39,272 nucleotides of DNA, from the NCBI GenBank assembly GCA_025355875.1, contig JANXYV010000067.1, positions 1 through 39,272 of the forward strand, written 5' to 3'. Of the stretch, positions 1 through 24,630 are shown one piece after another (positions within the stretch are counted from its first letter, which is position 1; the number at the start of each line of letters is the position of its first letter). The position numbers and the translations under genes are program-made. The stretch comes from Prolixibacteraceae bacterium. Lineage in GTDB: Bacteria; Bacteroidota; Bacteroidia; Bacteroidales; Prolixibacteraceae. The notes below the pieces were generated by a model. It was not told the DNA's origin. It saw nothing but the letters and a program-made list of their open reading frames with translations, and made no database searches.

Positions 1-936
1 GCAACGGGTAGCGTTGTTTTGAGTGGCTTACCATCCAGCGGAACCTGGACTTTGACCCGAAGTCCGGGAAGCACCACTACCGGAACCGGAACGAGCACTA
101 CGATTTCTTCACTTGCAGCCGGAACCTATACTTTCACGGTAACCAACGCTTCGGGCTGTGTTTCGCCAGCCTTGGCCAATGTGGTTATCACGGCACAACC
201 ATCATCACCCACAGCTCCAACAGTAGGAGTGATCACCCAACCGACCTGTGCTTTGGCAACGGGCAGTGTTGTTCTGAATGGCTTACCAGCCACCGGAACA
301 TGGACTTTGACCCGAAGTCCGGGAGGGACCACTACCGGAACTGGAACCAGCTCCACGATCAGTTCACTATCTGCAGGAACCTACACCTACACTGTAACCA
401 ATGCTTCGGGCTGTATCTCACCAGCCTCGGCCAATGTGGTGATCACCGCACAACCATCTTCGCCTACAGCTCCAACAGTAGGAACGATCACTCAACCAAC
501 TTGTGCTTTGGCAACGGGCAGCGTTGTTCTGAATGGCTTACCAGCCACTGGCACCTGGACAATCAATCCGGGAAACATTTCAGGCACCGGCACAAGTTCT
601 ACAATCAGCTCACTTGCAGCAGGAACCTACACATACACGGTGACCAATGCTTCGGGCTGTATCTCGACAGCTTCAGCCAATGTCGTTATCACTGCACAAC
701 CGTCTTCTCCTTCAGCCCCGGTAGTTAGCAACATTACCCAGCCAACCATTGCATTACCGACTGGGAGTGTCGTCTTAAGTAGCTTGCCTGCAATTGGCAA
801 TTGGATAATTAATCCGGGAAATATTTCCGGAACCGGCACGAATTTTACATTAAGCTCGCTTTCTCCAGGAACTTATAACTTTTCAGTAACCAATTCTGCC
901 GGTTGTATATCAGCACAATCAACGAATGTACTTATC
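1..936 (+). repeat. Four tandem 85-residue SprB-like units inside the adhesin gene
   Basis: Units begin at 1, 256, 511 and 757, giving periods of 255, 255 and 246 bp. The third period is shorter because TRSPGGTTTG is replaced by NPGNISG. The units share ATGSVVLNGLP, GTYTYTVTNASGC and VVITAQPSSP. The first three are nearly identical in DNA, while the fourth is clearly diverged, so the copies upstream are probably recent duplications. More copies are expected outside the window. Confidence 0.9.
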
Positions 937-3900
937 AACAGTCAACCAATAGCGAACTCTGGTGCAGATCAATCTGTCAATGAAGCGGCTCTGGTGACGC
1001 TCGATGGAACAGCTTCTTCAGACCCGAATAACGACGCATTGACTTATCTGTGGACCGCTCCGGTTGGGATTACGCTTAGTTCAGCAACCGCATCGAAGCC
1101 GACTTTCATCGCTCCGGAAGTTTTAGCAAATACAAATTATACTTTTTCGTTAGTGGTGAATGACGGAACAATCAATTCACCTCCTGATCTGGTTGTCGTT
1201 CAGGTGAAGCAAGTCAACAAAGCTCCGGTTGCGAATTCCGGAACAAATCAGACGGTCAATGAAAACAGTTTGGTTACCCTGGACGGTTCCGCATCTTCTG
1301 ACCCGGATAACGATGCCTTGACCTATTTATGGACAGCCCCTTCAGTTATTACCTTGAGCTCAAATACAGTTGCCAGATCAACTTTTACAGCTCCTGAAGT
1401 GAATTTTAATGCAAATTATACTTTTGTTTTAGTTGTAAACGATGGAATGATCAATTCAGCTCCTGATCAGGTTGTCATTCAGGTTTTGCAGGTCAACAAA
1501 GCTCCGGTAGCTAATGCAGGGGCCGATCAATCTGTCAATGAATCAACACTGGTTACCCTTGATGGAACAGGATCAACTGATCCGGATAATAATACGTTGA
1601 CGTATTTGTGGACTGCACCAGACGGGATTATTTTAAGCTCAGCAACTTCACCCAAACCAACTTTTATCGCTCCGGATGTAGCTGTAGATACTAATTATAG
1701 TATTTCGCTGGTTGTGAATGATGGAACGGTTAATTCGGTGGCCGACCAGGTTGTCATTCAGGTAAAACAAGTAAACAAAGCTCCCGTGGCAAATGCCGGA
1801 GTCGACCTGACAGTCAACGAAAACAGTCTGGTTTCGTTAGATGGTTCAGGATCTTCCGATCCTGATAATAATGCGATAACCTATTTATGGACAGCTCCTG
1901 CTGGGATCACACTCAGTTCTAATACGGCTTCAAAACCGACCTTCATTGCTCCAGAGGTCGCAATCAATACCAGTTTTACTTTTTCGTTAGTCGTGAACGA
2001 CGGTGCCCTAAATTCAACTGCGGATCAGGTGGTTGTTTTGGTCATGCAGGTCAATAAAGCTCCGGTCGCAAATGCAGGGATTGATCAGGCGGTGAACGAA
2101 AACAGTTTATATACGCTCGACGGTTCGGCTTCCACGGATCCGGATAACGATGCACTTACTTACCTCTGGATGGCTCCATCCGATATTACCCTGAGCTCAA
2201 ACACCGTAGCCAAGCCTACTTTTATTGCTCCGGAAGTTTCGGTAAATACAAATTATACATTTTCGCTGATTGTAAACGACGGAAGTTTGAATTCGCAGGC
2301 CGATCTCGTTGTGATAACAGTGAAACAAACCAATAAGGCTCCAATAGCCAATGCTGGTGCCGATCAACTGGTAAATGAAACAGATTTGGTAACACTTGAC
2401 GGAACGGCATCGAGTGATCCGGATAAGGATGCGTTAACTTACCTTTGGACAGCACCCCAAGGAATCGTGCTCAGTTCCACTACAGCAGCGAAACCGAGTT
2501 TTACTGCTCCGGAGGTTTCAGTGAATACCAACTACGTTTTCTCCTTAACAGTCAACGATGGAACGGTCAGTTCAGTTTCTAGCCAGGTCATTGTTCAGGT
2601 GAATCAGGTTAACAAACCTCCGGTTGCCAATGCCGGGGCCGACCAGTCGGTAAATGAAGGAGTTGTGGTAACTTTGGATGGAACATCTTCTTCGGATCCT
2701 GACAACAATAACCTTACTTATTTATGGACCGCACCTGTCGGGATTGTACTGAGTTCTAACTCTGCGTCCAAACCAACTTTTACAGCTCCGGAAGTGACAG
2801 TTAATACCGATTACGCTTTCACGTTGGTGGTGAACGACGGAATGGTCAATTCGATGGCTGACCAGGTTGTTGTTCAGGTGAAACAGGTGAATAAAATTCC
2901 GGTTGCCAATGCCGGAAACGATCAGTCGGTCAATGATGGTGATGTCGTTGTTTTGGATGGAACGGCATCGGTATTTCCGGAAGGGAGTTCACAAACCTAC
3001 TTATGGACGGCACCTGCAGGAATTACTTTAAGCTCAAATACAGCTTCAAAGCCTACTTTTACTGCACCTGATGTATTGGTAAACACGGACTATTCTTTCT
3101 CTTTGACAGTTAATGACGGAATCATCAGTTCAGCAGCAGATCAGGTCACAGTTCAGGTAAAACATGTGAGAAAACCTCCGGTGGCGGACGCCGGGATCAA
3201 CCAACTTATCAACGAAAATACTTCGGTTACACTCGATGGTTCTGGCTCATATGATCCTGAAGGAAGTAATCTGACCTACTTGTGGACTGCACCTGCCGGG
3301 ATCACACTTAGTTCAACGACGGTACCTAAACCTACATTTACCGCCCCGGAAGTGTTGGTGAACACAAATCTCATCTTTTCACTGGTGGTGAATAACGGAA
3401 TGACAAGTTCGAGCAAAGATCAGGTTGTGATTTTGGTTCAACAAGTAAATAAAGCTCCGGTTGCCAATGCTGGAATTAACCAGACGGTAAACGAAAATTC
3501 TTTGGTCACCCTGAATGGCTCAGCTTCGTCCGATCCGGATAATAATCCATTAACCTATTTATGGACTGCACCGGCAGGGATCACACTCAGTTCCACTAAG
3601 GCTGCCAGTCCGACCTTTGTGGCTCCTGAAGTCTCTGAGGATACCAATTATACTTTCTCTCTAGTTGTGAATGACGGAGCGCTGAATTCAATGGCCGACC
3701 AGATCGTTGTACTCATCAAACAAATAAATAAAGCCCCGCTGGCCAATGCCGGTGCTGACCAGTCGGTGAACGAAAAAAGCCTGGTTACCCTGGATGGTTC
3801 CGGATCTTCAGATCCAGATGGAAATTCGCTGAGTTATTCCTGGATCGCTCCGCCAGGCATTGTTCTGAGCTCAGCAACGGTAGCTAATCCAACATTTACT

Positions 3901-6498
3901 GCACCTGAAGTTACCCAGGATACTAAATACATTTTCTTTCTGGTCGTAAACGATGGAATTGTCAGTTCGGCTACAGATCAGGTTGTTATTCAGGTTATCC
4001 ATGTTAAAAAGGCTCCGGTAGCGAATGCCGGAATGGATTTGTCAATTAATGAAGGGTCACCAGTCACTTTGGATGGTTCAGCTTCAATTGATCCAGATGG
4101 ATCGGTTTTGTCTTATCTGTGGACTGCCCCTGCAGGAATCACTCTTAGTTCAACTACTGCTCCAAGGCCAACATTTACTGCGCCTGAAGTAACAATGAAT
4201 ACGAATCTTACTTTTTCTTTGGTTGTAAACAACGGAACAGTTAGTTCAGCAGCAGATCAGGTTATTGTTCAGGTAAAGAATGTCAATAAAGCTCCGGTTG
4301 CTAATGCAGGCATTGATCAGTCAGTCAGTGAAAAAAGTGTGTTTGCCTTGGATGGTTCAGCCTCCACCGACCCTGACAATGATCCGCTTACCTACAAATG
4401 GACTGCTCCTGACGGTATTGTATTAAGTTCGAATACAATAGCTAAACCCTCATTTACCGCTCCGGCAGTGTCATCAAAAACAAATTTTACTTTTAGTTTG
4501 ACTGTGAATGATGGTTTCGTTGATTCGCAGCCCGATCAGGTTGTGGTAACAGTCAAAAAAAGCAATAATCCGCCAACTGCCAAAGCAGGTTTGGATCAGT
4601 TGGTCAATGAAGCGGACCTGGTTACTTTGGATGGTTCCGGATCATTTGATCCTGACAAAGATGTCCTGACTTATCTTTGGACCGCTCCTGAAGGGATACA
4701 ACTCAGTTCAGCAACCGCGGCCATGCCATCGTTTACAGCTCCAAAGGTTACTATGGATATGAACTATACTTTTTCTTTGATCGTGAACGACGGAACGGTC
4801 AATTCGGTTTCGGATGAGGTCATTGTTCAGGTAAAGCATACGAATAAACCTCCTGTGGCGAATGCAGGGATTTCCAGGTCGGTACCCGAAGATGTTTTAG
4901 TGACACTTGATGGGACTGCATCCAGCGATCCGGATAACAATGTGCTGACCTATTTATGGACTGCACCTGCCGGGATTACGCTTAGCTCAAAAACTGCATC
5001 CAAACCCACATTTACTGCCCCTGAAGTATCGGCGAATTCTGGTTATAGCTTTTCTTTGGTTGTGAATGACGGAAAAATCAGTTCCACTCCTGAAATGGTT
5101 GTCATTCAGGTGAAGCATCTGGTAGCCAATGCCGGAACCGACCAGTCGGTCAACGAAGGAGATCGGGTCATGTTGAACGGAAGTATTTCATCCTATCCGG
5201 GGGGCAATGCACTGACTTATATGTGGACGGCTCCTGATGGCATCCTATTAAGCTCAAATACTGCGGCCAATCCGACTTTCACAGCTCCCGAAGTTTTAGT
5301 GAATACGAACTATACTTTCACCTTAGTAGCAAATGATGGAACAGTAAGTTCGAAACCTGACCAGGTTGTTGTGCAGGTTAAACAGGTGAACAAGGTGCCG
5401 GTTGCCAATGCAGGTATTGATCAGTCAGTCAGCGAAAATACCTTCGTTTCTCTGGATGGGTCTGCTTCGACCGATCAGGACAAGGATGTATTGAGCTATT
5501 TATGGACCGCTCCGGAAGGAATCAAACTTAATTCTGCAACGTCAGCTCGTCCTACTTTTCAGGCTCCGGAAGTTTCGGCTGACACAAACTTTACATTTTC
5601 ACTGGTGGTGAATGACGGAACGGTTAACTCGACTGCTGATCAGGTGATCGTGTTGGTGAAGAATGTCAATAAAGCTCCGGTGGCCAATGCCGGAATTAAC
5701 AGGTCGGTCGACGAGAATAGTCTGGTTTTACTGGATGGATCTGCTTCTTCTGATCCGGATAATGATGCTTTAACTTATATATGGACTGCTCCGCAAGGAA
5801 TCACCCTCAGTTCCACTTCAGCGGTCAATCCTACGTTTACAGCGCCTGAAGTTTTAATGAATACAAACTATACTTTTACTTTAACTGTCAGCGACGGCAA
5901 GCTAACTTCAGCTATCAGTCAAGTGGTTGTTATGGTTTTGAATGTTGACCATGCTCCCTATGTGAAAAGTGCCATTGAAGATATTTCAGTGGAGAAAAGG
6001 GCACCGGACCAGAATATTGATCTGAATACCATTTTTGCCGACGACGATCAGGGAGATGTATTCAATTACCATGTTGAAATAATTACCAATGATAAGGTGG
6101 TACAGGCTCAAATTAATGGTTCAATTCTCACCTTGAGTTTTTCGGGTGAGAATACAGGGTTCTCTGAGATTACAGTCATTGCAATTACGAACGGGAAAAC
6201 GGTCAGCACTTCCTTCCAGGTCGAGGTAAAAATTCCGACTTCCATCGAAATCCCGAAAGAGGATGTGCATGTCCGGATTTATCCGAACCCCACCAAAGGT
6301 ACAGTTCAATTGAAGTTTTCAGATTTGCCTCCGTCAGGAACCTGGATTACCGTTTTTGACAGTTCAGGAAAGACAATAATGAAATATTTGGCAGGTAGTA
6401 TCGAAGAATTTCTTGATTTGACTGGAAATCCGCCGGGCTTTTATTTGATCAAAATTGACCTGAAAACACCGAAAACATACAAATTGATTCTGGAATAG
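1..6498 (+). CDS. Giant T9SS-exported repeat adhesin, 5'-truncated by window edge
   Basis: The frame is open from base 1, and its first residues are the middle of a repeat unit, so the gene begins outside the window. In order it has four SprB-like units of about 85 residues (1-936), eighteen PKD/K319L-like beta-sandwich units of 93 residues (937-5946), one cadherin-like domain starting DHAPYVK, and a type A T9SS C-terminal sorting domain with the IYPNPTKG motif ending in KTYKLILE. It has no catalytic motif. Proteins of this layout in Bacteroidota are exported by the type IX system and act as surface adhesins, in some species as gliding adhesins of SprB type. An adhesion role is inferred from architecture. 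The next gene is a short paralogue sharing the last PKD units, the DHAPY domain and the sorting domain. The signal peptide must lie upstream of the window. Confidence 0.9.
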   Translation, partial: ATGSVVLSGLPSSGTWTLTRSPGSTTTGTGTSTTISSLAAGTYTFTVTNASGCVSPALANVVITAQPSSPTAPTVGVITQPTCALATGSVVLNGLPATGTWTLTRSPGGTTTGTGTSSTISSLSAGTYTYTVTNASGCISPASANVVITAQPSSPTAPTVGTITQPTCALATGSVVLNGLPATGTWTINPGNISGTGTSSTISSLAAGTYTYTVTNASGCISTASANVVITAQPSSPSAPVVSNITQPTIALPTGSVVLSSLPAIGNWIINPGNISGTGTNFTLSSLSPGTYNFSVTNSAGCISAQSTNVLINSQPIANSGADQSVNEAALVTLDGTASSDPNNDALTYLWTAPVGITLSSATASKPTFIAPEVLANTNYTFSLVVNDGTINSPPDLVVVQVKQVNKAPVANSGTNQTVNENSLVTLDGSASSDPDNDALTYLWTAPSVITLSSNTVARSTFTAPEVNFNANYTFVLVVNDGMINSAPDQVVIQVLQVNKAPVANAGADQSVNESTLVTLDGTGSTDPDNNTLTYLWTAPDGIILSSATSPKPTFIAPDVAVDTNYSISLVVNDGTVNSVADQVVIQVKQVNKAPVANAGVDLTVNENSLVSLDGSGSSDPDNNAITYLWTAPAGITLSSNTASKPTFIAPEVAINTSFTFSLVVNDGALNSTADQVVVLVMQVNKAPVANAGIDQAVNENSLYTLDGSASTDPDNDALTYLWMAPSDITLSSNTVAKPTFIAPEVSVNTNYTFSLIVNDGSLNSQADLVVITVKQTNKAPIANAGADQLVNETDLVTLDGTASSDPDKDALTYLWTAPQGIVLSSTTAAKPSFTAPEVSVNTNYVFSLTVNDGTVSSVSSQVIVQVNQVNKPPVANAGADQSVNEGVVVTLDGTSSSDPDNNNLTYLWTAPVGIVLSSNSASKPTFTAPEVTVNTDYAFTLVVNDGMVNSMADQVVVQVKQVNKIPVANAGNDQSVNDGDVVVLDGTASVFPEGSSQTYLWTAPAGITLSSNTASKPTFTAPDVLVNTDYSFSLTVNDGIISSAADQVTVQVKHVRKPPVADAGINQLINENTSVTLDGSGSYDPEGSNLTYLWTAPAGITLSSTTVPKPTFTAPEVLVNTNLIFSLVVNNGMTSSSKDQVVILVQQVNKAPVANAGINQTVNENSLVTLNGSASSDPDNNPLTYLWTAPAGITLSSTKAASPTFVAPEVSEDTNYTFSLVVNDGALNSMADQIVVLIKQINKAPLANAGADQSVNEKSLVTLDGSGSSDPDGNSLSYSWIAPPGIVLSSATVANPTFTAPEVTQDTKYIFFLVVNDGIVSSATDQVVIQVIHVKKAPVANAGMDLSINEGSPVTLDGSASIDPDGSVLSYLWTAPAGITLSSTTAPRPTFTAPEVTMNTNLTFSLVVNNGTVSSAADQVIVQVKNVNKAPVANAGIDQSVSEKSVFALDGSASTDPDNDPLTYKWTAPDGIVLSSNTIAKPSFTAPAVSSKTNFTFSLTVNDGFVDSQPDQVVVTVKKSNNPPTAKAGLDQLVNEADLVTLDGSGSFDPDKDVLTYLWTAPEGIQLSSATAAMPSFTAPKVTMDMNYTFSLIVNDGTVNSVSDEVIVQVKHTNKPPVANAGISRSVPEDVLVTLDGTASSDPDNNVLTYLWTAPAGITLSSKTASKPTFTAPEVSANSGYSFSLVVNDGKISSTPEMVVIQVKHLVANAGTDQSVNEGDRVMLNGSISSYPGGNALTYMWTAPDGILLSSNTAANPTFTAPEVLVNTNYTFTLVANDGTVSSKPDQVVVQVKQVNKVPVANAGIDQSVSENTFVSLDGSASTDQDKDVLSYLWTAPEGIKLNSATSARPTFQAPEVSADTNFTFSLVVNDGTVNSTADQVIVLVKNVNKAPVANAGINRSVDENSLVLLDGSASSDPDNDALTYIWTAPQGITLSSTSAVNPTFTAPEVLMNTNYTFTLTVSDGKLTSAISQVVVMVLNVDHAPYVKSAIEDISVEKRAPDQNIDLNTIFADDDQGDVFNYHVEIITNDKVVQAQINGSILTLSFSGENTGFSEITVIAITNGKTVSTSFQVEVKIPTSIEIPKEDVHVRIYPNPTKGTVQLKFSDLPPSGTWITVFDSSGKTIMKYLAGSIEEFLDLTGNPPGFYLIKIDLKTPKTYKLILE
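937..5946 (+). repeat. Eighteen tandem PKD-like units with a 279-bp period
   Basis: Each unit reads roughly NKAPVANAG-DQ-VNE, then VTLDGSASSDPDN, LTYLWTAP-GI-LSS, PTFTAPEV and SLVVNDG. Anchor positions at 937, 1216, 1495, 1774 and onward are exactly 279 bp apart. The array length to the DHAPYV domain at 5947 equals seventeen units of 279 bp plus one of 267 bp. The short spacing is at the unit starting about 5119, where the NKPP linker is missing. The copies differ at many synonymous and non-synonymous sites, so the array is older than the SprB-like one. Confidence 0.93.
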
Positions 6499-6577
6499 AA
6501 ATTAACAGTATGTAATATAACTTACTTATTATTAATTTGTTAAAACAATCTAAATCTTTGGCAAATTGATCCGTCAG

Positions 6578-6609
6578 TTTGGTTGATGAAGTATTTTTGA
6601 GTTATTTTG
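6578..6609 (+). promoter_or_regulatory. Candidate Bacteroidota promoter for the short adhesin paralogue
   Basis: TTTG at 6578-6581 is followed after 20 bases by TTATTTTG at 6602-6609. This matches the Bacteroidota primary sigma consensus (TTTG, about 20 nt, TAnnTTTG) with one mismatch in the -7 box. The expected transcript would start about 25 nt before the GTG at 6642. A second -7-like box, TATTTTTG at 6592-6599, has no well-spaced -33 element. Confidence 0.45.
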
Positions 6610-6641
6610 CTCTAAATTTATAGGGAAAAATAATCTATCGG

Positions 6642-8204
6642 GTGAAAAGATGTATTTATTTGGTCGCAATTCTATTCCTGGCAGCAAATAGTTTTGGTCA
6701 GGGGCACTTTGTCCTTGCATTCTCCGGAAATGGACAAGATCAGATGAACATTAATATTGTTTCGGCCAGTATCGCAGGGATTTCTCTTGAATCCGGTGAT
6801 GAAATTGCTGCATTCGACGGAACGGTATGTTGTGGCAAGATAATCCTGAAACAACCTATTGATAATTTAGATCCCAATACGTTTGTGTCCATTGCTGCTT
6901 CAAGAAAAGATGATGGAATTTCCAACGGGTATACTATTGGCGATCCAATCTCGATCAAATTCTGGGATTCAAGTAAAGGCCTGGAAATATCCGGAGTGAA
7001 AATTGATTTTCTTAATCTGGCGGGTATCTTAACTTCAACAACTTATGAGATATCCGGATCAGCCTTCATGAAATTATCAACTGATATAATAGTGAATAAA
7101 ATCCCGATTGCCAACGCCGGTACTGATCAGTCGGTAAACGAGGGCGTAACTGTGTTTCTGGACGGATCGGCTTCTTCAGATCCTGATGGAAAAATGCTGA
7201 CCTTTTCATGGACAGTTCCTCAAGGAATCATACTTAGTTCAACTACTGTATCCAACCCGAGTTTTACGGCTCCTGAGGTTTCGATTAGTACAAACTTCAC
7301 TCTGTATTTGATGGTAAGCAACGGAATAGTCAGCTCAGTTACCGATCCGGTTGTAATTCAGGTGAACCAGGTCAACAAAACTCCGGTTGCCAATGCAGGA
7401 AATGACCAATCAGTGAATGAAGGCTCAGTTGTGACCTTGACCGGAAAAGCTTCCAGCGATCCCGACAATAATTTCCTGACATATTTATGGTCCGCTCCGG
7501 CAGGGATTACGCTCAGTTCGACCAAGACTTCAAATCCAACCTTTACTGCCCCGGAAGTGAATGTTGATACCCAATATACTTTTTCCCTCGTTGTAAACGA
7601 TGGCAAGGTTAATTCGCCTGCAGATCAGGTTGTGATTACAGTTTTTAATGTGGACCATGCACCTTATCTTAAAAGTACCATTAAAGATGTTATCGTTGGA
7701 AAGAATGCACCAGACCAGAGTATTGACTTGAATACAATTTTTCAGGATGATGATCAGGGAGACCATCTTACTTTTCTGGTCAGTTCGAGTGATAATGATC
7801 AGGTCGTTCAGGCAAGCATAAGCGGTTCATCGCTGATATTGAGCTTCTCTTCCGGGAACACCGGGTCTTCAGATATTACAATTACTGCGTCTTCAAATGG
7901 AAAACAAGTCCAAACCTCGTTCAAGGTAGATGTCAGTCTTCCAACCGTTTTTGATTTGATTAACGAAACTCCTCAGGTTCAGATTTATCCAAATCCAACA
8001 AAAGGCTTGGTTCAGATCAAATTTCCAAATGTTCCTGTAAAGAAATCCTGGATCAATGTTTTCTATAGTTCCGGAAGTTTGATTCTAAGATCATTGGCCA
8101 CCAAAAGTGAAGAAATGCTGAACCTTGCTGGATATAAACCCGGGTTATATTTCATCAGGATTGGTGAACAGAATTCCAAAACCTACAAACTTGTTCTGGA
8201 ATAG
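6642..8204 (+). CDS. Short T9SS-exported PKD-repeat protein, paralogue of the giant adhesin
   Basis: This 520-residue protein starts at GTG 6642. The upstream in-frame stop at 6621-6623 leaves no ATG choice, and the GTG opens a good signal peptide (MKRCIYLVAILFLAANSFGQ). Residues about 20-150 form a secreted beta domain with the motif SGDEIAAFDGTVCCG, a pattern seen in T9SS cargo of unknown function. Two PKD-like units of 93 residues follow (7095-7652), then a DHAPYLK cadherin-like domain and a sorting domain with IYPNPTKG ending KTYKLVLE. The last two domains align closely with those of the preceding gene, so the two arose by duplication and differ in repeat number (2 against at least 18) and N-terminal domain. 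It is probably exported to the cell surface or released. The ligand is unknown. No terminator is obvious on either side. Confidence 0.88.
   Translation: MKRCIYLVAILFLAANSFGQGHFVLAFSGNGQDQMNINIVSASIAGISLESGDEIAAFDGTVCCGKIILKQPIDNLDPNTFVSIAASRKDDGISNGYTIGDPISIKFWDSSKGLEISGVKIDFLNLAGILTSTTYEISGSAFMKLSTDIIVNKIPIANAGTDQSVNEGVTVFLDGSASSDPDGKMLTFSWTVPQGIILSSTTVSNPSFTAPEVSISTNFTLYLMVSNGIVSSVTDPVVIQVNQVNKTPVANAGNDQSVNEGSVVTLTGKASSDPDNNFLTYLWSAPAGITLSSTKTSNPTFTAPEVNVDTQYTFSLVVNDGKVNSPADQVVITVFNVDHAPYLKSTIKDVIVGKNAPDQSIDLNTIFQDDDQGDHLTFLVSSSDNDQVVQASISGSSLILSFSSGNTGSSDITITASSNGKQVQTSFKVDVSLPTVFDLINETPQVQIYPNPTKGLVQIKFPNVPVKKSWINVFYSSGSLILRSLATKSEEMLNLAGYKPGLYFIRIGEQNSKTYKLVLE
7095..7652 (+). repeat. Two tandem 279-bp PKD-like units
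   Basis: Units start at 7095 and 7374, and the following DHAPYL domain starts at 7653, so both are exactly 279 bp. They are the same repeat family and period as the 18-unit array upstream. This makes unequal exchange between the two genes possible. Confidence 0.9.
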
Positions 8205-8291
8205 GCAATCATGAAGGTAAAAGCTAAAATTCTTAATTTTTACATCCCAATAACAAGCTCCGGAAGTCATCCCAAATACGGCGAAAAAATA

Positions 8292-8323
8292 TTTGCAATT
8301 TGCCATCAAATTGCTTATATTTG
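8292..8323 (+). promoter_or_regulatory. Full-consensus Bacteroidota promoter upstream of the BspA-like gene
   Basis: TTTG at 8292-8295, 20 bases, then TATATTTG at 8316-8323 exactly fit the Bacteroidota -33/-7 consensus. Transcription would begin near 8329. The first plausible downstream start codon is 8668, so the transcript would have a leader of about 340 nt. Confidence 0.65.
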
Positions 8324-8427
8324 GTTATGATCCTGTTTTTGAGAAGAATATCTATTGATTCAGACTCAAAACATGCTTTATGTCAGTAGCTGAAAAATCG
8401 TGACTCCTGGGTTTTGAGCAGATTTCG

Positions 8428-8447
8428 ATAAGATGACAGCATCTTAT
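8428..8447 (+). other. Small leader hairpin
   Basis: ATAAGATG and CATCTTAT form a perfect 8-bp stem with the loop ACAG, located about 100 nt into the inferred leader. There is no U-run after it, so it is not a simple terminator. It may be a leader structure or chance. Confidence 0.3.
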
Positions 8448-8667
8448 ATACAGCCACCCTTATTCTCCATTACTGACATTTGTAACTTACATCTTCTTCC
8501 GGTTTTACGCCCTGTTCCCGTATTTGAAGTACGGATTGCTTTCTCTTCCAGTTGCTCTGTCCAGCCTCTCGCTGATTCTTTAGATTTTTCAGATAACCAA
8601 TTCTTTCTCAACCTTCTTCCGTTCTCAGTCAATAATTCAAAGAATAAAAACCCAAAAACAAAACGAT

Positions 8668-9507
8668 ATGAAAACAATCTTTTTACTTTTCATCAGCCTG
8701 TTTATTACAATTACATTACAGGCACAAGTTTTTAAAACAGCAAATGTTACTCCGGGACATTTAAGAGTAGTTCTTACAGCTGAAGAACTTGCCACAGTTA
8801 CGAACCTCACTCTTTCCGGCACCATCGATGCGCGGGATTTTAAAACCATGCGTGATGATATGCCAAACCTGACTGAAATTGATTTAAGCAGGACAACCAT
8901 TGCCGAATATACCGGGACAGAAGGAACAACAAGCAGATTCGGCGAAAGCAGCACTTATTATGCAAATGCTATTCCGGCAAATGCATTTTGTAATGAAAAG
9001 ACAGAAAAATGGAATACCAGTTTAACCACATTTGTATTTCCTCTAAATGTTACTTCAATAGAGTGGCATGCTTTTTTGCACTGTACTGGTCTAAACTCTA
9101 TAAATATTCCATCGTTAGTAACTTCGATAGGAGAAGGCAGTTTTGCTTCATGCACAGGGTTAAAATCATTAAACATTCCTTCCTCAGTTATTACGATTGG
9201 AACTGCTGCTTTTATGGATTGTAGCAATTTAACTTCAGTTATAATTCCTCCATCAGTGACTTCAATTGGGGCAGTTGCTTTTGCAGGATGTGCAAATTTG
9301 ACTTCAGTTAACATCCCTTTCTCAGTTACAAATATTGGCTGGGCTCCATTTGAGGGTAGTGGAACTATAATTAATGTAGATAATAATAATCCCAATTATT
9401 CCAGTATTGACGGAATTTTGTTTAATAAAGTATTAACAGATTTACTTCAATTTCCTTCAATTTCCTTCGTCACGAACTGGGAATTTCGTTATTCCTTCTA
9501 TGGTTAA
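8668..9507 (+). CDS. BspA-like leucine-rich repeat protein, N-terminal fragment before a frameshift
   Basis: This fragment of 279 residues has a clear signal peptide (MKTIFLLFISLFITITLQAQ), then a cap module with LTAEELATVTNLTLSG and TIDARDFKTMRDDMPNL, then BspA/LRR_5 repeats (LTSVNIPFSVTNIG and similar) and the segment SSIDGILFNK. From residue about 263 the sequence (ISFVTNWEFRYSFYG, then stop) no longer fits the family. The expected continuation, FVIPSMVNSIRKHAFGGC, is in the next frame and belongs to the fragment starting at 9500. Removing one copy of a 10-bp duplication at 9445-9464 restores a continuous frame reading LLQFPSSRTGNFVIPS, which matches the same position in later modules. As written, this product would be secreted but would lack the sorting domain. 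Confidence 0.85.
   Translation: MKTIFLLFISLFITITLQAQVFKTANVTPGHLRVVLTAEELATVTNLTLSGTIDARDFKTMRDDMPNLTEIDLSRTTIAEYTGTEGTTSRFGESSTYYANAIPANAFCNEKTEKWNTSLTTFVFPLNVTSIEWHAFLHCTGLNSINIPSLVTSIGEGSFASCTGLKSLNIPSSVITIGTAAFMDCSNLTSVIIPPSVTSIGAVAFAGCANLTSVNIPFSVTNIGWAPFEGSGTIINVDNNNPNYSSIDGILFNKVLTDLLQFPSISFVTNWEFRYSFYG
9445..9468 (+). repeat. 10-bp tandem duplication that breaks the BspA-like gene
   Basis: CTTCAATTTC occurs at 9445-9454 and again at 9455-9464, followed by CTTC (2.4 copies). Ten extra bases shift the frame by one. Deleting one copy in silico joins the 8668 and 9500 frames into one gene of about 2054 codons, with correct family sequence across the join. Confidence 0.9.
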
Positions 9508-12500
9508 TTCTATCAGGAAACACGCATTTGGTGGATGCACCAATTTAACATCAGTTACAATTCCTTTGTCGGTTGATACTATTGAAATTGGTGCTTTTAT
9601 CAACTGTCGCGGGTTGTCATCCGTTAGCATTCCTTCTTCAGTTAATTCAATTGGAGAATATGCTTTTGCTTATTGTAATGGATTGACATCCATTTATACA
9701 AATTCAAGTTATCCTCTGAAACTAAATTCTTCTCCATCTGTTTTTTCTGAAGTTGATAAAGCAAACTGCATATTGCATGTCCCTTATGGTTCAAAAACTG
9801 CATATCAGATAGCCAACCAATGGAAAGACTTTGTCAACATTATGGAAATGCCTGGCATCAAACTTTCTGCAACAACTGTAAATCTAAAGGCACAACGAGG
9901 TAGTACCACCTCAGTGAATCTTACTTCCAATACGAGTTGGGCAGTAAGTTCCGATCAACCCTGGATTACCATATATCCAACTTCGGGGTCAGGAGACCAA
10001 AAAATCACTTTCACCGCTGAGGAAAACACAACAGATGCAGTTCGTAAAGCTACAGTAACCGTTTCGGCAACTGGAGTCGAGTCCCAGACGATTCTGGTCA
10101 CACAAGCCACATCCCATATTACTAAAAATGTTGCTGCAGGCGGATTAAAAACAAGTTTAACAGCTGAGGAACTTGCAACAATAACAAAACTTACGATTTC
10201 CGGCACCATTGATGCGCGGGATTTTAAAACCATGCGTGAAGATATGCCTTTGCTGGCTGAAATTGATTTAAGCGGGGTAACTATTGCGGAATATACCGGC
10301 ACGGAAGGAACTATAGGTACAAACAACATTACTTATCCAGCAAATGCAGTTCCTGATATTGCCTTTGCAAACTCCTTGCAAGGAAAGCTTAGTTTGAAAG
10401 CGATTTTACTTCCTTCCTCGGTCAATGCGATAGGATACCTTTCCTTTTCTGGCTGTAGTAATTTGTCATCGATAAACATTCCTTCACCAGTAACATTTAT
10501 TGGTATGTATGCTTTTTATGGGTGCACTAGTCTGAACTCTGTTCGCATTCCGTCGTTAGTAAATTTTATTGGAGGATATGCTTTCTGGAGCGTTGCCGGA
10601 CCTTTTTCGGTCGTTGAAGGCAATTCCTATTTCTCAAGTATGGATGGTGTTCTGTTTAATAAAGCGCGTTCTATATTAATACAATGCCCAACTTCAAAAA
10701 CAGGAATTTATGAGATTCCTTCTACGGTAACATCTATTCAGGGCGGAGCATTTTTTGGATGTAAAGGATTAAATTTCATCGCAATTCCAACATCAGTCAC
10801 ATCTATTGGAGGTTATGCTTTTTATGGCTGTAGTGGTCTTAATTCAGCTTCTATTCCTTCGTCAGTTACTTCCATTGGATGGAATGCTTTTGATGGTTGT
10901 GCCGGATTGACCTCAGTAAAAATCCCTTCCTCAGTATCCTATCTCGGAGGGAATTCATTTTCAGGTTGTATTGGATTGACTTCAATTTATACTACTGCAA
11001 ATATTCCTATCGGATTAAATTCTTCTCCAGAGGTTTTTCTGAATGTTGATAAAACCACTTGCAAATTATATGTACCTTATGGAACAAAAAATCTTTATGC
11101 CACAGCAGACCAATGGAAAGATTTTAGTTCTATCATTGAAGAAACCAATGGATTTATGGTTGATGCATCTTTGCTTATGCTTTCTGGAGAAGAAGGTAGC
11201 AATGCATCTGCAAATATTAAGGCAAATATAGGTTGGACAGCAAGCTCAGATCAGTCGTGGCTAAGCATAAATCAGTCAGCTGGCAATAGTGACCAAACCC
11301 TTGTATTTACTGCTAAATCCAATAATTCGGTAGGAACGCGAACTGCAAAAGTGACTGTTTCTTCAGCCGGGAGTCCCTCTCAGATAATTACAGTAATTCA
11401 GGATGGGACAATACCCGCAGTGACTATCCCAATTGCCGATTTTCCACTATCAAGTAATGGGGTTGATATTACCGGTAATAACGATGCAATGACATTAACA
11501 AATACTCCATTTCAAAAGGGCGGGATTTACTGCAATGGGGTATATGATCTGAGCAGGCTTCCTAATTCGTGTAAAGCATTAACGCCATCGATCAGAAACT
11601 TTAATTTCAATTCATTTTCTGTCAGTGTCGATTTTTTAGTCGAGGAGTATATGACTCAGCCCGTCTTAGTTCTTGGAAGCTGCAGATGGTTGGGATTTTA
11701 TCTGAAAGCTGACAGTACCGTTGACCTATATTATAATAACTTCAGGCATTTGTCCAGTACGAAAAAATATACTAAAAATGAATGGCATAATGCGAAAATA
11801 TTATACGATGGAGTGACCGCAAAGATATTCCTCGATGATGATTTGGCATGTTTTATAAACACTCAGCTGGATAATCCTTGTGGAGATTATAGTAATGAAA
11901 TTGGCCCAACCAACTATGGAAATGGTTCGGTTTTAAAGGGTTATATAAAGAACTTGAAAGTATACAATTGTTTTGCACCAGAACTCAAGCTTTCGGCTAA
12001 TTCAGTAAACATTGGAGCCAAACAAGGGAGCATTGCCACTGTAAAAATTACATCCAATACTGCCTGGTCAGTCAGTTCCGATCAGTCATGGCTCACGACA
12101 AGCAGTCCTTCTGGTAACAACGACCAAATACTTTCTTTTACAGCTGATGAAAATACCACAGATGAAGCCCGCACAGCCAATGTGACCGTTTCAGGTGCAG
12201 GATTCGATCCTCAAACGATTTCAATTTTACAGCCTAAATCCATTGCAACTTTAAATGTATCAGCTGGCGGATTAAAGGTAAGTTTACCAGCGGAGGAACT
12301 TGCCACAATCACCAAACTCACAATTACCGGCACCATAGATGCCCGGGATTTTAAGACGATGCGCGATGATATGCCAAACCTGACTGAGTTGGATTTGAGT
12401 GGAGCAACGATTGCGGAATATACCGGTACCGAAGGAACTTATTGGGAACAGGGTTCAATCATAACCTATCCGGCAAATGAAATTCCGATCTTTGCCTTTC

Positions 12501-14842
12501 AAAATGAAGAATCCGTTAATAACACTTTGGTTTCTGTTATTTTGCCGTTAAATGCTACCTCTATTGGATGGGATGCTTTTTGTTTAGTTACAAAGTTAAC
12601 ATCCATAGTTATTCCTCCAACCATTACCAATATTGGTGTTGCTGCATTTGCTGGTTGCCCTTTCTCAACGGTTACGATTCCATCTTCGGTAACACAGATT
12701 GATGTAGTTGCATTTAGTGGTTCTGGCTATATCAATGTGGAGACCGGCAATCCGAATTATTGCAGCATCGATGGTGTTCTTTTCAATAAAGACAAGACTA
12801 CCATTATGCAAGTTCCTTATTCAAAAACCGGAACTTACGCCATTCTTCAATCGGTTACCAGGATCGATGATCATGCTTTTGAGTATTGCCGGGATTTGAC
12901 TTCAATCGACATTCCTTCTTCCATTACTTCTATCAGTCATTTTGCATTTCTGGCTTGTACAAGCTTAAGTTCCATTTCTATTCCACCTAAGGTTACTTTT
13001 CTGGGAGACTGGGCTTTTTCTGATTGTACTGGCCTGACATCCATATACAGTCGTACTTTGGTTCCGGTAGATTTAAGCCATTCAAAAGAGGTTTTTCTAA
13101 ATGTCGACAAAACCAACTGTACCCTGTATGTACCCTATGGCACGAAGAAGCTTTATGCTGCAGCCAATCTTTGGAAAGATTTTGTCAATATTCTGGAGAT
13201 GCCAGGATTCATGCTTTCCGAGACTACTGCTAATCTGGCCGCTAAACAGGGGAGCTCAGCCAGTGTAAATATAACTTCCAACCTCAACTGGACAGCCAAC
13301 TCCGATCAAAGCTGGCTCAAAATAAATCCTGCTTCCGGTGCCGGAGTTAAAACTCTGACTTTTACAGCCGAAGCCAACCCATCGGTTCTTGCCCGAACAG
13401 CAATCGTGACGGTTTCGGCAACGGGTGCCGATTCTCAAACCATTTTGGTTACTCAGGAAGCATCTTCTGCAGCGGTTACTGCAGGCAGTTTAAAAACAAT
13501 TTTATCTGCGGAAGAACTCAGCTCGGTAACCAAACTCACATTGACCGGCTCTATTGATGCCCGTGATTTTCAAACCATGCGGGATGATATGCCAAATCTG
13601 ACAGAAATAGATTTAAGCGTCGCTACCATTCTATCTTATACAGGAACAGAGGGAACTTTGATTTCGAGCGACATCACTTATCCAGCCAATGAAGTTCCAC
13701 AATTCGCATTTTATAACTTAAATACACAATTGGGTAAAAACAGTTTATCCAGGATTTCTCTGCCAAAATCAGCCGGGAGTATTGGCTACTATGCTTTTCA
13801 AGGCTGCACTGGCCTGGAGACATTTACCATTCCAATTTCGGTGAGCGCTATTCTTGACGGTGCATTTTTTGGTTTTTCCGGCACATTCCAAGTGGATGCT
13901 GGCAATAACAGTTTTTCGTGTTCTGATGGCGTATTATTCAATAAATCCAAATCAAGTATTATCCAATGTACTTCTTCAAAAACAGGAAATTATGAAATAG
14001 CTTCCTCAGTCACTTCCATTGGAAATGGTGCTTTTTTATTCTGTGGTGGAATTTCGACGTTAAACATTCCTTCTTCAGTTTCAGCCATCGGAAGTTGGGC
14101 ATTCCAGCAATGCAATGGTCTGACATCAATAAAGGTGAATTCTATTACGCCAATTGACCTGAATTCTTCTTTGGATGTCTTTTATGGGGTTGACCAAACC
14201 ACTTGCACACTGAAAGTTCCTTATGGAACAAAGAAACTTTATTCCGAAGCCAACCAATGGAAAGATTTTACCCAAATTGTTGAAATGCCGGGCTTCTTGC
14301 TTTCAGGTTCAGAAGTTATGGTTCCAGCCTATCAGGGAAGCAGTGTGACCCTGAATATTATTTCCGATATCAAATGGACGGCAAGTTCTGATCAAAGTTG
14401 GCTCACCGTAAATCCGGGTTCGGGCACAGGAATTCAGACACTTATTTTTACTGCTGAAGGCAATCCAGTTATTGCTATTCGAACTGCAATTGTAACCATT
14501 TCGGCAGATGGTATCGAGCCACAAACCATTACCGTTACTCAAGAAAAATGGCCTACTGGAATGGATGACTTATCCGAAAACTCAACCCAAATCAAATGCT
14601 ACCCGAATCCATTTACCTATGAAATATCCATCGAAATCCAGAATCCAAAACGGGCTGAAATCTCGGTGGATATCTACAATCTGGCCGGAGAACGCATCAA
14701 AAACTTGGCAAACAAAAGAAACGATGAAAAGCTGGATTTGAAATGGAATGGCACCAACGATTCAGGGCAAAAGGTTGTGCCGGGAGTGTATATCTGTAAG
14801 GTGAATAATCAAGCTAAACGGCTGACTTATCAAGGGAAATGA
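9500..14842 (+). CDS. BspA-like LRR/BACON surface protein with T9SS sorting domain, main fragment after the frameshift
   Basis: These 1780 residues continue the 8668 fragment; the ATG at 9500 is an internal Met of the repaired gene, not a natural start. The whole protein has four modules. Each has a cap (IDARDFKTMRDDMP), LRR_5 repeats, a segment like NVDKTTCKLYVPYGTK with QWKDF, and a BACON domain (SDQSWL, then PxSG and VTQ). BACON domains lie near 9852-10110, 11153-11400, 11988-12230, 13207-13455 and 14290-14545. Between the second and third, 11420-11985 encodes a LamG/concanavalin-like domain (residues about 640-828). The C-terminus has CYPNPF and a FlgD-like WNGTNDSGQKVVPGVY, a T9SS sorting domain. 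Such proteins bind host or polymer ligands at the surface, and BACON is a proposed carbohydrate- or mucin-binding domain. The precise ligand is unknown. Alone, this fragment lacks a signal peptide. Confidence 0.88.
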   Translation: MVNSIRKHAFGGCTNLTSVTIPLSVDTIEIGAFINCRGLSSVSIPSSVNSIGEYAFAYCNGLTSIYTNSSYPLKLNSSPSVFSEVDKANCILHVPYGSKTAYQIANQWKDFVNIMEMPGIKLSATTVNLKAQRGSTTSVNLTSNTSWAVSSDQPWITIYPTSGSGDQKITFTAEENTTDAVRKATVTVSATGVESQTILVTQATSHITKNVAAGGLKTSLTAEELATITKLTISGTIDARDFKTMREDMPLLAEIDLSGVTIAEYTGTEGTIGTNNITYPANAVPDIAFANSLQGKLSLKAILLPSSVNAIGYLSFSGCSNLSSINIPSPVTFIGMYAFYGCTSLNSVRIPSLVNFIGGYAFWSVAGPFSVVEGNSYFSSMDGVLFNKARSILIQCPTSKTGIYEIPSTVTSIQGGAFFGCKGLNFIAIPTSVTSIGGYAFYGCSGLNSASIPSSVTSIGWNAFDGCAGLTSVKIPSSVSYLGGNSFSGCIGLTSIYTTANIPIGLNSSPEVFLNVDKTTCKLYVPYGTKNLYATADQWKDFSSIIEETNGFMVDASLLMLSGEEGSNASANIKANIGWTASSDQSWLSINQSAGNSDQTLVFTAKSNNSVGTRTAKVTVSSAGSPSQIITVIQDGTIPAVTIPIADFPLSSNGVDITGNNDAMTLTNTPFQKGGIYCNGVYDLSRLPNSCKALTPSIRNFNFNSFSVSVDFLVEEYMTQPVLVLGSCRWLGFYLKADSTVDLYYNNFRHLSSTKKYTKNEWHNAKILYDGVTAKIFLDDDLACFINTQLDNPCGDYSNEIGPTNYGNGSVLKGYIKNLKVYNCFAPELKLSANSVNIGAKQGSIATVKITSNTAWSVSSDQSWLTTSSPSGNNDQILSFTADENTTDEARTANVTVSGAGFDPQTISILQPKSIATLNVSAGGLKVSLPAEELATITKLTITGTIDARDFKTMRDDMPNLTELDLSGATIAEYTGTEGTYWEQGSIITYPANEIPIFAFQNEESVNNTLVSVILPLNATSIGWDAFCLVTKLTSIVIPPTITNIGVAAFAGCPFSTVTIPSSVTQIDVVAFSGSGYINVETGNPNYCSIDGVLFNKDKTTIMQVPYSKTGTYAILQSVTRIDDHAFEYCRDLTSIDIPSSITSISHFAFLACTSLSSISIPPKVTFLGDWAFSDCTGLTSIYSRTLVPVDLSHSKEVFLNVDKTNCTLYVPYGTKKLYAAANLWKDFVNILEMPGFMLSETTANLAAKQGSSASVNITSNLNWTANSDQSWLKINPASGAGVKTLTFTAEANPSVLARTAIVTVSATGADSQTILVTQEASSAAVTAGSLKTILSAEELSSVTKLTLTGSIDARDFQTMRDDMPNLTEIDLSVATILSYTGTEGTLISSDITYPANEVPQFAFYNLNTQLGKNSLSRISLPKSAGSIGYYAFQGCTGLETFTIPISVSAILDGAFFGFSGTFQVDAGNNSFSCSDGVLFNKSKSSIIQCTSSKTGNYEIASSVTSIGNGAFLFCGGISTLNIPSSVSAIGSWAFQQCNGLTSIKVNSITPIDLNSSLDVFYGVDQTTCTLKVPYGTKKLYSEANQWKDFTQIVEMPGFLLSGSEVMVPAYQGSSVTLNIISDIKWTASSDQSWLTVNPGSGTGIQTLIFTAEGNPVIAIRTAIVTISADGIEPQTITVTQEKWPTGMDDLSENSTQIKCYPNPFTYEISIEIQNPKRAEISVDIYNLAGERIKNLANKRNDEKLDLKWNGTNDSGQKVVPGVYICKVNNQAKRLTYQGK

Positions 14843-22579: not shown

Positions 22580-22719
22580 GTCATTTGTAGTTATTTGCTT
22601 CGCGTCATTTGTGGTCAATTGCTTCGCGTCATTTCAAAGTCGCCGGGAATTGCGATAAATAACTGAATGACAATCAATGGCAATCAATGACAATCAAAGA
22701 CCATAAATGACCACTGAAT
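22580..22719. repeat. Patch of two short tandem arrays able to pair with each other
   Basis: A 24-bp direct repeat occurs at 22580-22603 and 22604-22627 (3 mismatches), with a third start at 22628 (GTCATTT). Then five 10-bp units resembling GACAATCAAT run from 22669 to 22719. TCATTTGTGGTC at 22605-22616 pairs with GACCATAAATGA at 22699-22710 along 12 bp with one G-U. The patch fills the gap between the SpoIID and AmpG-like genes. Confidence 0.75.
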
Positions 22720-22755: not shown

Positions 22756-24630
22756 ATGCCAGAAACCACCGGAACTCCAAAACAAAGAAACCCCTGGACA
22801 TGGATTCCAAGTCTTTATTTTGCTGAAGGAATTCCCTATGTGGTTGCTATGACGGTGGCGGTCATCATGTTCAAACGGTTCGGGATTTCCAATACCGATA
22901 TCGCGCTTTACACCAGTTGGTTATACTTGCCATGGGTAATCAAGCCGTTATGGAGTCCGGTAGTCGATTTGCTTAAGACTAAACGGTGGTGGATTGTCAT
23001 CATGCAATTGATTATCGGAGCTGCATTGGGTGGGGTTGCCTTGTCTATTCCACTGCCCGGATTTTTTAAGATTACTCTCCTTTTTTTATGGCTTCTGGCA
23101 TTTAGCTCTGCAACCCACGATATTTCGGCCGATGGTTTTTATATGCTTGGACTCGACCAGCACCAGCAAGCCTATTTTGTTGGCATTCGAAGCACCTTTT
23201 ACCGGATTGCCATGATTACCGGCCAAGGTTTATTGATCATCCTCGCTGGCTTTTTTGAAACCTCGACCGGACTTCAGCCAATTGAGATCATGGTTTCGGC
23301 TGGTCCAGGTTTTTCAAATGTGATCGGCTTGTCCGATGAGAAGCAATCAAATCCGAAATCCGAAAACAATACATTCTTTGCTGTTTTCCCTCATCAAGCT
23401 GAATTCTCGAGCCAGAGTATTTCTGCCGTAAAACTGGACTCCATCCGGAAAGTTGTTTCCGAAAATAATCAGAAAAATGGCTTTGTATCGATTCAGTCTG
23501 AAAACAAATCAGAGGTTACTGCCCGGAGAGAAAGGTCTTTATGGGCAAAATTGATTTCTGATCCATTGAAGAATTTCCTGATAAAACATTTTCATGAAAA
23601 GGGAAAAGGGAGTTCAGGAATTGCTGGGGTAGGAAACGTAGCAGTAGTTTCCGTCAGGCTAACCAAAAAACCGGATGAAAATCAGGAAATGGTGCTCAAT
23701 ACCAAATTCAGGAGTGGAGACAACAGCCTATGGCTGATTGAAGGAGAACGACTCACTTTCAATTCGGCGAATCAGGATAAAACGGCCTATTTGCTTTTTC
23801 AATGCGACCCGAAGCTGAAAGGTTCTGCTCAGGCTGTGTTCAAAGGAACATCAGGAAACATCCATTTGGCATGGAGTATTACCTTTCTGATTTTGGCGGT
23901 CCTATTCGTACTTCTTTCATTTTATCACCGCCTGATGCTTCCGCATCCAAAATCAGATTCCGGGATGGTTGGTCAGGATCAAAATCTAATGAAAGAGTTT
24001 TTCCGGACATTTGCGTCTTTTTTCCGGAGAAAAGATATTGGTGTAATCCTTTCGTTCCTGATACTTTACAGGGTAGGAGAGGCACAACTAATCAAGATGG
24101 CTTCACCGTTTATGCTCGATCCCAGACAGTTGGGCGGGCTTGGACTAACCACTGGCGAAGTTGGACTGCTCTACGGAACCTTTGGAATTCTGGCGCTTAC
24201 CGCAGGAGGAATTCTGGGTGGAATCGCAGCCTCACTCAAAGGTTTTAAATATTGGCTCTGGTGGATGGTGCTGGCCATCAACATGCCTCATTTGGCGTAT
24301 GTTTATCTTTCGTTTGCCCAGCCCGAAAATCAACTGATTGTTGGAGTCTGTGCGGCAGTTGAGCAGTTCAGTTACGGTTTTGGGTTCACAGCATACATGT
24401 TGTACATGATCTATATCTCAGAAGGGAAAAACAAAACGGCGCATTTCGCCATTGCGACAGGATTCATGGCCCTCGGAATGATGCTGCCCGGAATGTTTTC
24501 AGGTTGGCTTCAGGAAATAATCGGGTATAAAAACTTTTTCATTTGGATCATGTTGTGTATGATTCCGGCCATGATCCCGGTTTTCTTTATCAGGGTAAAA
24601 CCTGAATTTGGCATGAAGAAACAGGAATGA
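22756..24630 (+). CDS. AmpG-like MFS permease with a large periplasmic insertion
   Basis: The 624-residue protein matches AmpG-type transporters in SLYFAEGIPY, SWLYLPWVIKPLWSPVVD and ATHDISADGFYM, the second bearing the usual basic/aromatic motif before TM3. AmpG imports anhydro-muropeptides (GlcNAc-anhMurNAc-peptides) into the cytoplasm for recycling. Hydrophobic segments place TM1-TM5 before residue about 168 and TM6 at about 370-392 (HLAWSITFLILAVLFVLLS). The roughly 200 residues between them are hydrophilic, with some beta-like stretches, and by MFS topology face the periplasm. This makes the protein longer than ordinary AmpG. The second half (TM7-TM12) is normal. It follows the SpoIID-domain gene, fitting cell-wall turnover. 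Substrate is inferred from family only. Confidence 0.82.
   Translation: MPETTGTPKQRNPWTWIPSLYFAEGIPYVVAMTVAVIMFKRFGISNTDIALYTSWLYLPWVIKPLWSPVVDLLKTKRWWIVIMQLIIGAALGGVALSIPLPGFFKITLLFLWLLAFSSATHDISADGFYMLGLDQHQQAYFVGIRSTFYRIAMITGQGLLIILAGFFETSTGLQPIEIMVSAGPGFSNVIGLSDEKQSNPKSENNTFFAVFPHQAEFSSQSISAVKLDSIRKVVSENNQKNGFVSIQSENKSEVTARRERSLWAKLISDPLKNFLIKHFHEKGKGSSGIAGVGNVAVVSVRLTKKPDENQEMVLNTKFRSGDNSLWLIEGERLTFNSANQDKTAYLLFQCDPKLKGSAQAVFKGTSGNIHLAWSITFLILAVLFVLLSFYHRLMLPHPKSDSGMVGQDQNLMKEFFRTFASFFRRKDIGVILSFLILYRVGEAQLIKMASPFMLDPRQLGGLGLTTGEVGLLYGTFGILALTAGGILGGIAASLKGFKYWLWWMVLAINMPHLAYVYLSFAQPENQLIVGVCAAVEQFSYGFGFTAYMLYMIYISEGKNKTAHFAIATGFMALGMMLPGMFSGWLQEIIGYKNFFIWIMLCMIPAMIPVFFIRVKPEFGMKKQE

Follow-up and report, generated by a model that had tools for sequence, protein, structure and literature searches.

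The stretch of DNA analysed here, referred to as the window, comprises 39,272 nucleotides (contig C29, 1–39272) of a Prolixibacteraceae bacterium whose draft genome of 230 contigs and 5.18 Mb is listed as 97.93% complete. On its forward strand lies a BspA-like gene that is divided between two reading frames (Table 1). As the first-pass annotation had claimed, the frames begin at 8668 and 9500 (279 aa and 1780 aa) and an exact 10-bp tandem duplication lies at the break, where CTTCAATTTC stands in two adjacent copies (9445–9454 and 9455–9464) and the period continues to 9468; the joined length that it gave, 2054 codons, agrees with arithmetic on the coordinates. From stop to stop the open frames cover 8584–9507 upstream and 9437–14842 downstream, and because they overlap only at 9437–9507 the frame change must lie there, with the duplication inside. 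The LRR_5 homology on the two flanks is read in different frames (DNA 9013–9360 and 9464–9709). Tandem Repeats Finder calls the tract at 9440–9468 with 2.9 copies and 94% matches, the lag-10 match continuing leftward with one mismatch.

Table 1. Features of the split gene and its hinges, in window coordinates
Feature	Position	Strand	Remarks
Upstream ORF	8668–9507	+	279 aa; signal-peptide-like start (by eye), BspA-type LRRs; residues past the tract out of frame
Downstream ORF	9500–14842	+	1780 aa; seven LRR_5 and five BACON stretches, weak match to Laminin_G_3, T9SS tail; signal peptide not found
Overlap of the two open frames	9437–9507	+	71 bases; sole possible site of the frame change
Downstream ATG overlapping upstream TAA (ATGGTTAA)	9500–9507	+	possible re-initiation site, judged from sequence
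Period-10 tract, perfect, 24 bases	9445–9468	+	CTTCAATTTC twice, then CTTC; 2.4 copies; frame-breaking duplication
Module 1 hinge (DGILFNK onward)	9409–9530	+	only one of 27 hinges to leave its frame
Module 2 hinge	10643–10755	+	in frame
Module 3 hinge	12770–12882	+	in frame
Module 4 hinge	13925–14037	+	in frame
T9SS C-terminal sorting domain (Por_Secre_tail)	14600–14824	+	Pfam 32.8 bits (cut-off 27); TIGR04183 30.4 bits (cut-off 23)

Domains and export signals of the split gene

The LRR_5 scores of the upstream and downstream ORFs (114 and 366 bits, against a curated cut-off of 27.7) qualify the gene as BspA-like, and the Laminin_G_3 match in the downstream ORF stays below its cut-off (21.2 vs 27.6 bits). 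The tail exceeds its family cut-off, and the genome holds a 2696-bit match to SprA, a component of the type IX secretion system (T9SS). The design of the product is best explained as that of a four-module BspA-like protein in which LRR modules alternate with BACON and which would be built for T9SS export. The BspA of Tannerella forsythia is similar in combining BspA-type LRRs with a T9SS C-terminal domain and is listed as T9SS cargo (PMC5445135); the window gene differs from it in alternating LRR modules with BACON and in being split. Immediately upstream, in window 1–8204, lie two further T9SS-tail ORFs of 2165 aa (open at the window start) and 520 aa, in both of which long internal repeats of a shared kind can be seen by eye, the second scoring as PKD-like.

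Two signals are found on T9SS cargo, a classical signal peptide and a conserved C-terminal domain (PMC5445135). In the split gene the signal-peptide-like start and the tail lie in different frames and are not found on one polypeptide, which bears out the first-pass annotation on their separation. The upstream product would be exported as a fragment of some 260 LRR residues that lacks a sorting tail, and the downstream product, if made at all via re-initiation at 9500, would have the tail but no signal peptide, so that neither piece would be displayed on the surface. Because the T9SS requires both signals, here placed on separate products, surface display should fail in the gene as sequenced; the earlier statement that the duplication would switch display off is thus sound, since it follows from the separation of two signals that T9SS cargo carries together.

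The module 1 hinge among its siblings and relatives

Each LRR module contains a hinge of the type DGVLFNKxxxxLIQCPxSKTGxYxIPSSV, and the break lies in the hinge of module 1. In a DNA alignment of nine hinges, module 1 is 10 bases longer than each of the other eight, which were taken from modules 2–4, from contig C61 of the same genome (one) and from the same genus (three from L069, one from L059). The MAFFT gap occupies columns 30–39, corresponding to window 9438–9447, and overlaps the start of the tract, its exact placement being ambiguous. The match to the sibling modules that had been proposed for the joined sequence holds at the level of protein and also of DNA, where all eight other hinges share the 10-column gap.

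The hinge motif was looked for in the window, C61, C127 and 20 same-genus regions and gave 19 hits, four of which (window 1621, 5236 and 21058; L066 5859) were dropped as not being BspA hinges; of the remaining 15, 14 read on and module 1 does not. Another 12 hinges, from 19 named relatives' loci, are all in frame, so that 26 of 27 are intact at the site of the break, a total that counts hinges recognizable by the left half of the motif and misses any spelt otherwise. The only intragenic change of frame in the BspA homology of the 20 same-genus regions falls at an N gap in L060. Across 261 kb of BspA loci, including the window, other out-of-frame tracts overlapping an ORF of at least 100 aa occur in L053, L060 and L070, none of them at a BspA frame change. 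A same-genus contig with a BspA gene (L054, G006:C14:1-12000) carries at 11470–11741 four close tandem repeats of 10–11 bases, outside ORFs of at least 100 aa.

The comparison collections hold one genome per species. DNA matches were found in 18 of 60 relatives, in pieces of 32–551 bases at 63–94% identity, and the 19 named loci show 36–56% protein identity. The latter come mostly from metagenome bins labelled Prolixibacteraceae or other Bacteroidales, together with three bins of Clostridia type and a single cultured strain, Maribellus maritimus. These affiliations suggest, although not with certainty, that the bacterium is of environmental origin.

Tandem tracts and T9SS tails across the genome

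The window contains eight exact tandem tracts of period 7–60, and only the one at 9445–9468 has a period of at least 10. Among Markov-simulated sequences of window length, none of 60 at order 2 and 1 of 60 at order 3 contained a tract with a period of 8–30 and at least 14 matched bases. Short exact duplications are nevertheless not rare in the genome: 24 exact tracts (period 5–60, at least 10 matched bases) were counted in 582 kb, made up of the window, the BspA stretches and the T9SS-tail stretches and amounting to about a tenth of the genome. Eighteen of the 24 overlap an ORF of at least 150 aa, and in 12 of those 18 the period is not a multiple of three. Two of the 11 such tracts besides the one in the split gene have a period of 10. 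None of the 11 looked like a split gene (ten were viewed in three frames, L088 was judged from ORF and tail coordinates): five are crossed by an open frame (window 23349, L122 4022, L132, L145 and L171), three lie at or upstream of a start (L110, L122 6322 and L141), and three lie at an ORF 3′ end or between ORFs (L149, L151 and L088), with one ORF ending in the L149 tract and another perhaps beginning there.

Several repeats deserve mention in their own right. In L141 (G000:C157:33486-38768), a perfect 8-base repeat of 3.25 copies lies on the minus strand at 3260–3285, at the 5′ end of a 1044-codon T9SS-tail ORF, and every unit contributes an ATG, each in a different frame, shortly ahead of the signal peptide; it is a better-placed candidate for start-site switching than the duplication at 9445–9468. 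In L171 (G000:C229:5240-9124), three copies of GGAAAAA, a unit not divisible by three, stand at 2099–2119 inside the open frame of a 578-codon T9SS-tail ORF, where they closely precede the hydrophobic part of a signal-peptide-like segment, and in L088 (G000:C54:1-8061) GTAAA is repeated 4.4 times at 4719–4740 between two adjoining T9SS-tail ORFs. The window itself has two imperfect intergenic repeats upstream of the ORF at 22756: a 24-base unit in 2.3 copies (22580–22634) and the 10-base unit AATGACAATC in 4.6 copies (22666–22711).

Genome-wide, 146 Por_Secre_tail matches were obtained at E up to 0.01, perhaps a lower bound as 150 of 163 candidates were scored, and 138 of them exceed the family cut-off. 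A lenient hydrophobicity test applied to M starts within the first 80–120 residues found a signal-peptide-like start in 126, some of which may be false passes, and missed it in 20. By eye, seven of the 20 do have such a start (C73:37072, C160:33767, C42:16836, C127:2156, C167, C108:8728 and C229); four reach the edge of the examined stretch (C65:2445, C62:794, C29:6277 and C127:12270, the C127 frame being 2851 aa long); three start close to a contig end, at a distance of about 135 bases or less (C106, C203 and C43:30312); and five are ORFs of at most 150 aa (C43:29655, C81:7502, C14, C179:19154 and C211, the C14 and C211 matches containing stops). The one that remains is the split gene; at 1801 codons, it is the sole long ORF lying away from contig ends in which a signal peptide was not found. 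The surroundings of the other 145 tails showed no second split by tandem duplication. A recurrent class within the genome was accordingly rejected, neither the 146 tail matches nor the 582-kb scan having given a second case in a survey that covered T9SS-tail genes.

One other T9SS-tail gene looks split (C179; L153, G000:C179:17009-19465, about 2014–2191): a 379-aa ORF with a signal-peptide-like start overlaps the tail-bearing frame, whose tail, at 24.2 bits, is below the cut-off. A search of this junction for two full copies with at least six matched bases found no tandem repeat. Gene breakage thus occurs in this genome without any switch.

Readings of the duplication

Three readings of the duplication had been put forward by the first-pass annotation: an on/off switch, a fresh loss-of-function mutation and an assembly artefact. 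We consider it likely that the gene is an ordinary, not ancient loss-of-function allele produced by a single 10-base tandem duplication, from which reversion is possible and probably rare. The unit has the 4-base repeat CTTC at both ends, an ordinary seed for slippage. In this gene, 4-base matches occur at 15–36 positions per lag over ten lags, with 33 at lag 10, about a third of which come from the tract itself. Replication slippage is the probable cause: strand slippage between short direct repeats would have produced one spontaneous 10-base duplication in module 1 and shifted the frame. An old pseudogene should show further stops or frameshifts downstream, and none was found in 1801 open codons. 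As 687 of the 16,209 possible single-base changes would create a stop, the 95% upper bound, with indels ignored, is 71–96 neutral substitutions, or 1.3–1.8% per site, the range reflecting the assumed transition bias. The open frame of 1801 codons means that the duplication is not ancient. Thus, a single loss-of-function duplication fits best of the three readings, whereas its freshness is bounded only by that 1.3–1.8% per site. Two observations count against a plain loss of function: a gene that frequently returns to the on state could likewise have an intact downstream frame, and the product, a BspA-like surface protein, belongs to a gene class with known phase variation (PMC5476646). That reversion is rare is, moreover, an assumption, because tandem repeats in Mycobacterium tuberculosis promoters are reported to vary in copy number at 1e-2 to 1e-3 per chromosome (PMC12817950).

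We infer that the duplication is biological and not technical in origin. An assembly or sequencing artefact, in which the true copy number differs from the assembled one, is rather unlikely. The draft state of the genome, in 230 contigs, would accommodate such an artefact, and sequencing error is named among the causes of unclustered frameshifts (PMC3711429), but other large annotated ORFs of the window are unbroken, including a 1033-aa AcrB-type and a 1526-aa CotH-type ORF, and the 24-base tract is shorter than common short reads and lies in a region that is unique in the genome. An exact 10-base duplication does not resemble the usual homopolymer error.

The proposal of a slipped-strand switch holds that the 10-base unit is gained and lost, so that display goes off and returns in a fraction of the population, and that selection maintains this. 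Such a switch would be in keeping with a tandem unit that is out of frame and sits in a surface-protein gene whose downstream frame has not decayed, and there are precedents in the pneumococcal capsule-gene duplications (PMC4022640) and in the BspA-like genes of Candidatus Mycoplasma girerdii (PMC5476646). The tract has only 2.4 copies, however, and for insertions of up to 9 bp reversion is expected at a frequency of at most about 1e-5 (PMC4022640). A survey of frame transitions associates phase variation with clusters of five or more together with repeats, and takes cases outside clusters to be probable indel mutations or sequencing errors (PMC3711429). Set against this survey, the split gene has the repeat, the length of the tandem unit at its frame change not being a multiple of three, and lacks the recurrence: one of 27 hinges is affected, and neither the 26 other hinges nor the 20 same-genus regions nor the surroundings of the other 145 T9SS tails showed a further case. 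With 26 of 27 hinges reading straight through, no second split and 2.4 copies, the duplication is not supported as an evolved on/off switch, and we regard this proposal as improbable.

It is very unlikely that both frames yield useful products, whether as a pair of coupled genes or through programmed frameshifting or re-initiation. The stop/start overlap ATGGTTAA does have the layout of translational coupling, a class recognized in the same survey (PMC3711429), but the boundary cuts a conserved hinge that is continuous at 26 of 27 sites, the scripted test gave no signal peptide for the downstream piece, inspection of 9437–9507 by eye revealed no familiar shift motif, and the exact duplication already accounts for the split. 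An invertible promoter was rejected, as 8150–9600 yielded no more than two inverted pairs, both weak, the first lying upstream of the gene (8387–8399/8583–8595) and the second inside it.

The closest known case is that of the spontaneous tandem duplications in pneumococcal capsule genes, described for the type 3 locus (Waite 2001) and for cap8E and tts (Waite 2003), as cited in PMC4022640. There, as in the split gene, a short tandem duplication within the reading frame inactivates a surface-related gene, and it can revert; the capsule variation, however, was observed in culture, whereas the split gene is one assembled sequence in which no variation was seen. In Candidatus Mycoplasma girerdii, BspA-like surface proteins are likewise truncated by repeat-length frameshifts and are often "off" in the majority sequence, but the repeats are dinucleotide arrays of at least five units in several genes, with variants counted in reads (PMC5476646), as against one gene with 2.4 copies of a 10-base unit in an assembled sequence. 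Tandem duplications, three of 26–116 bp, are also found among spontaneous loss-of-function mutations in Xenorhabdus lrp; there, no genetic reversion was seen in eight tested isolates with distinct lrp mutations, which were judged to be plain mutants and not phase variants (PMC6786866). Our search of the literature, largely outside subscription journals, found no report of tandem-duplication switching in T9SS cargo or in Prolixibacteraceae. A two-copy 8-bp case in a Pseudomonas regulator has reportedly been described.

Caution is warranted in treating one locus as a system, because, among the 146 T9SS-tail matches, the split gene is alone in being a long ORF away from contig ends in which a signal peptide was not found. 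There is a slim prospect that a low-copy 10-base duplication in the hinge of a BspA-like T9SS protein constitutes a rare, reversible off state, that is, a contingency switch that would need no pre-existing repeat array, would arise from ordinary 4-base seeds and would operate in a host outside the usual pathogens. If it is a switch, it would extend phase variation by tandem duplication to surface proteins exported by the T9SS in a bacterium of probably environmental origin; taken as it is, the locus provides a clean example of a frame-breaking duplication that is not ancient.
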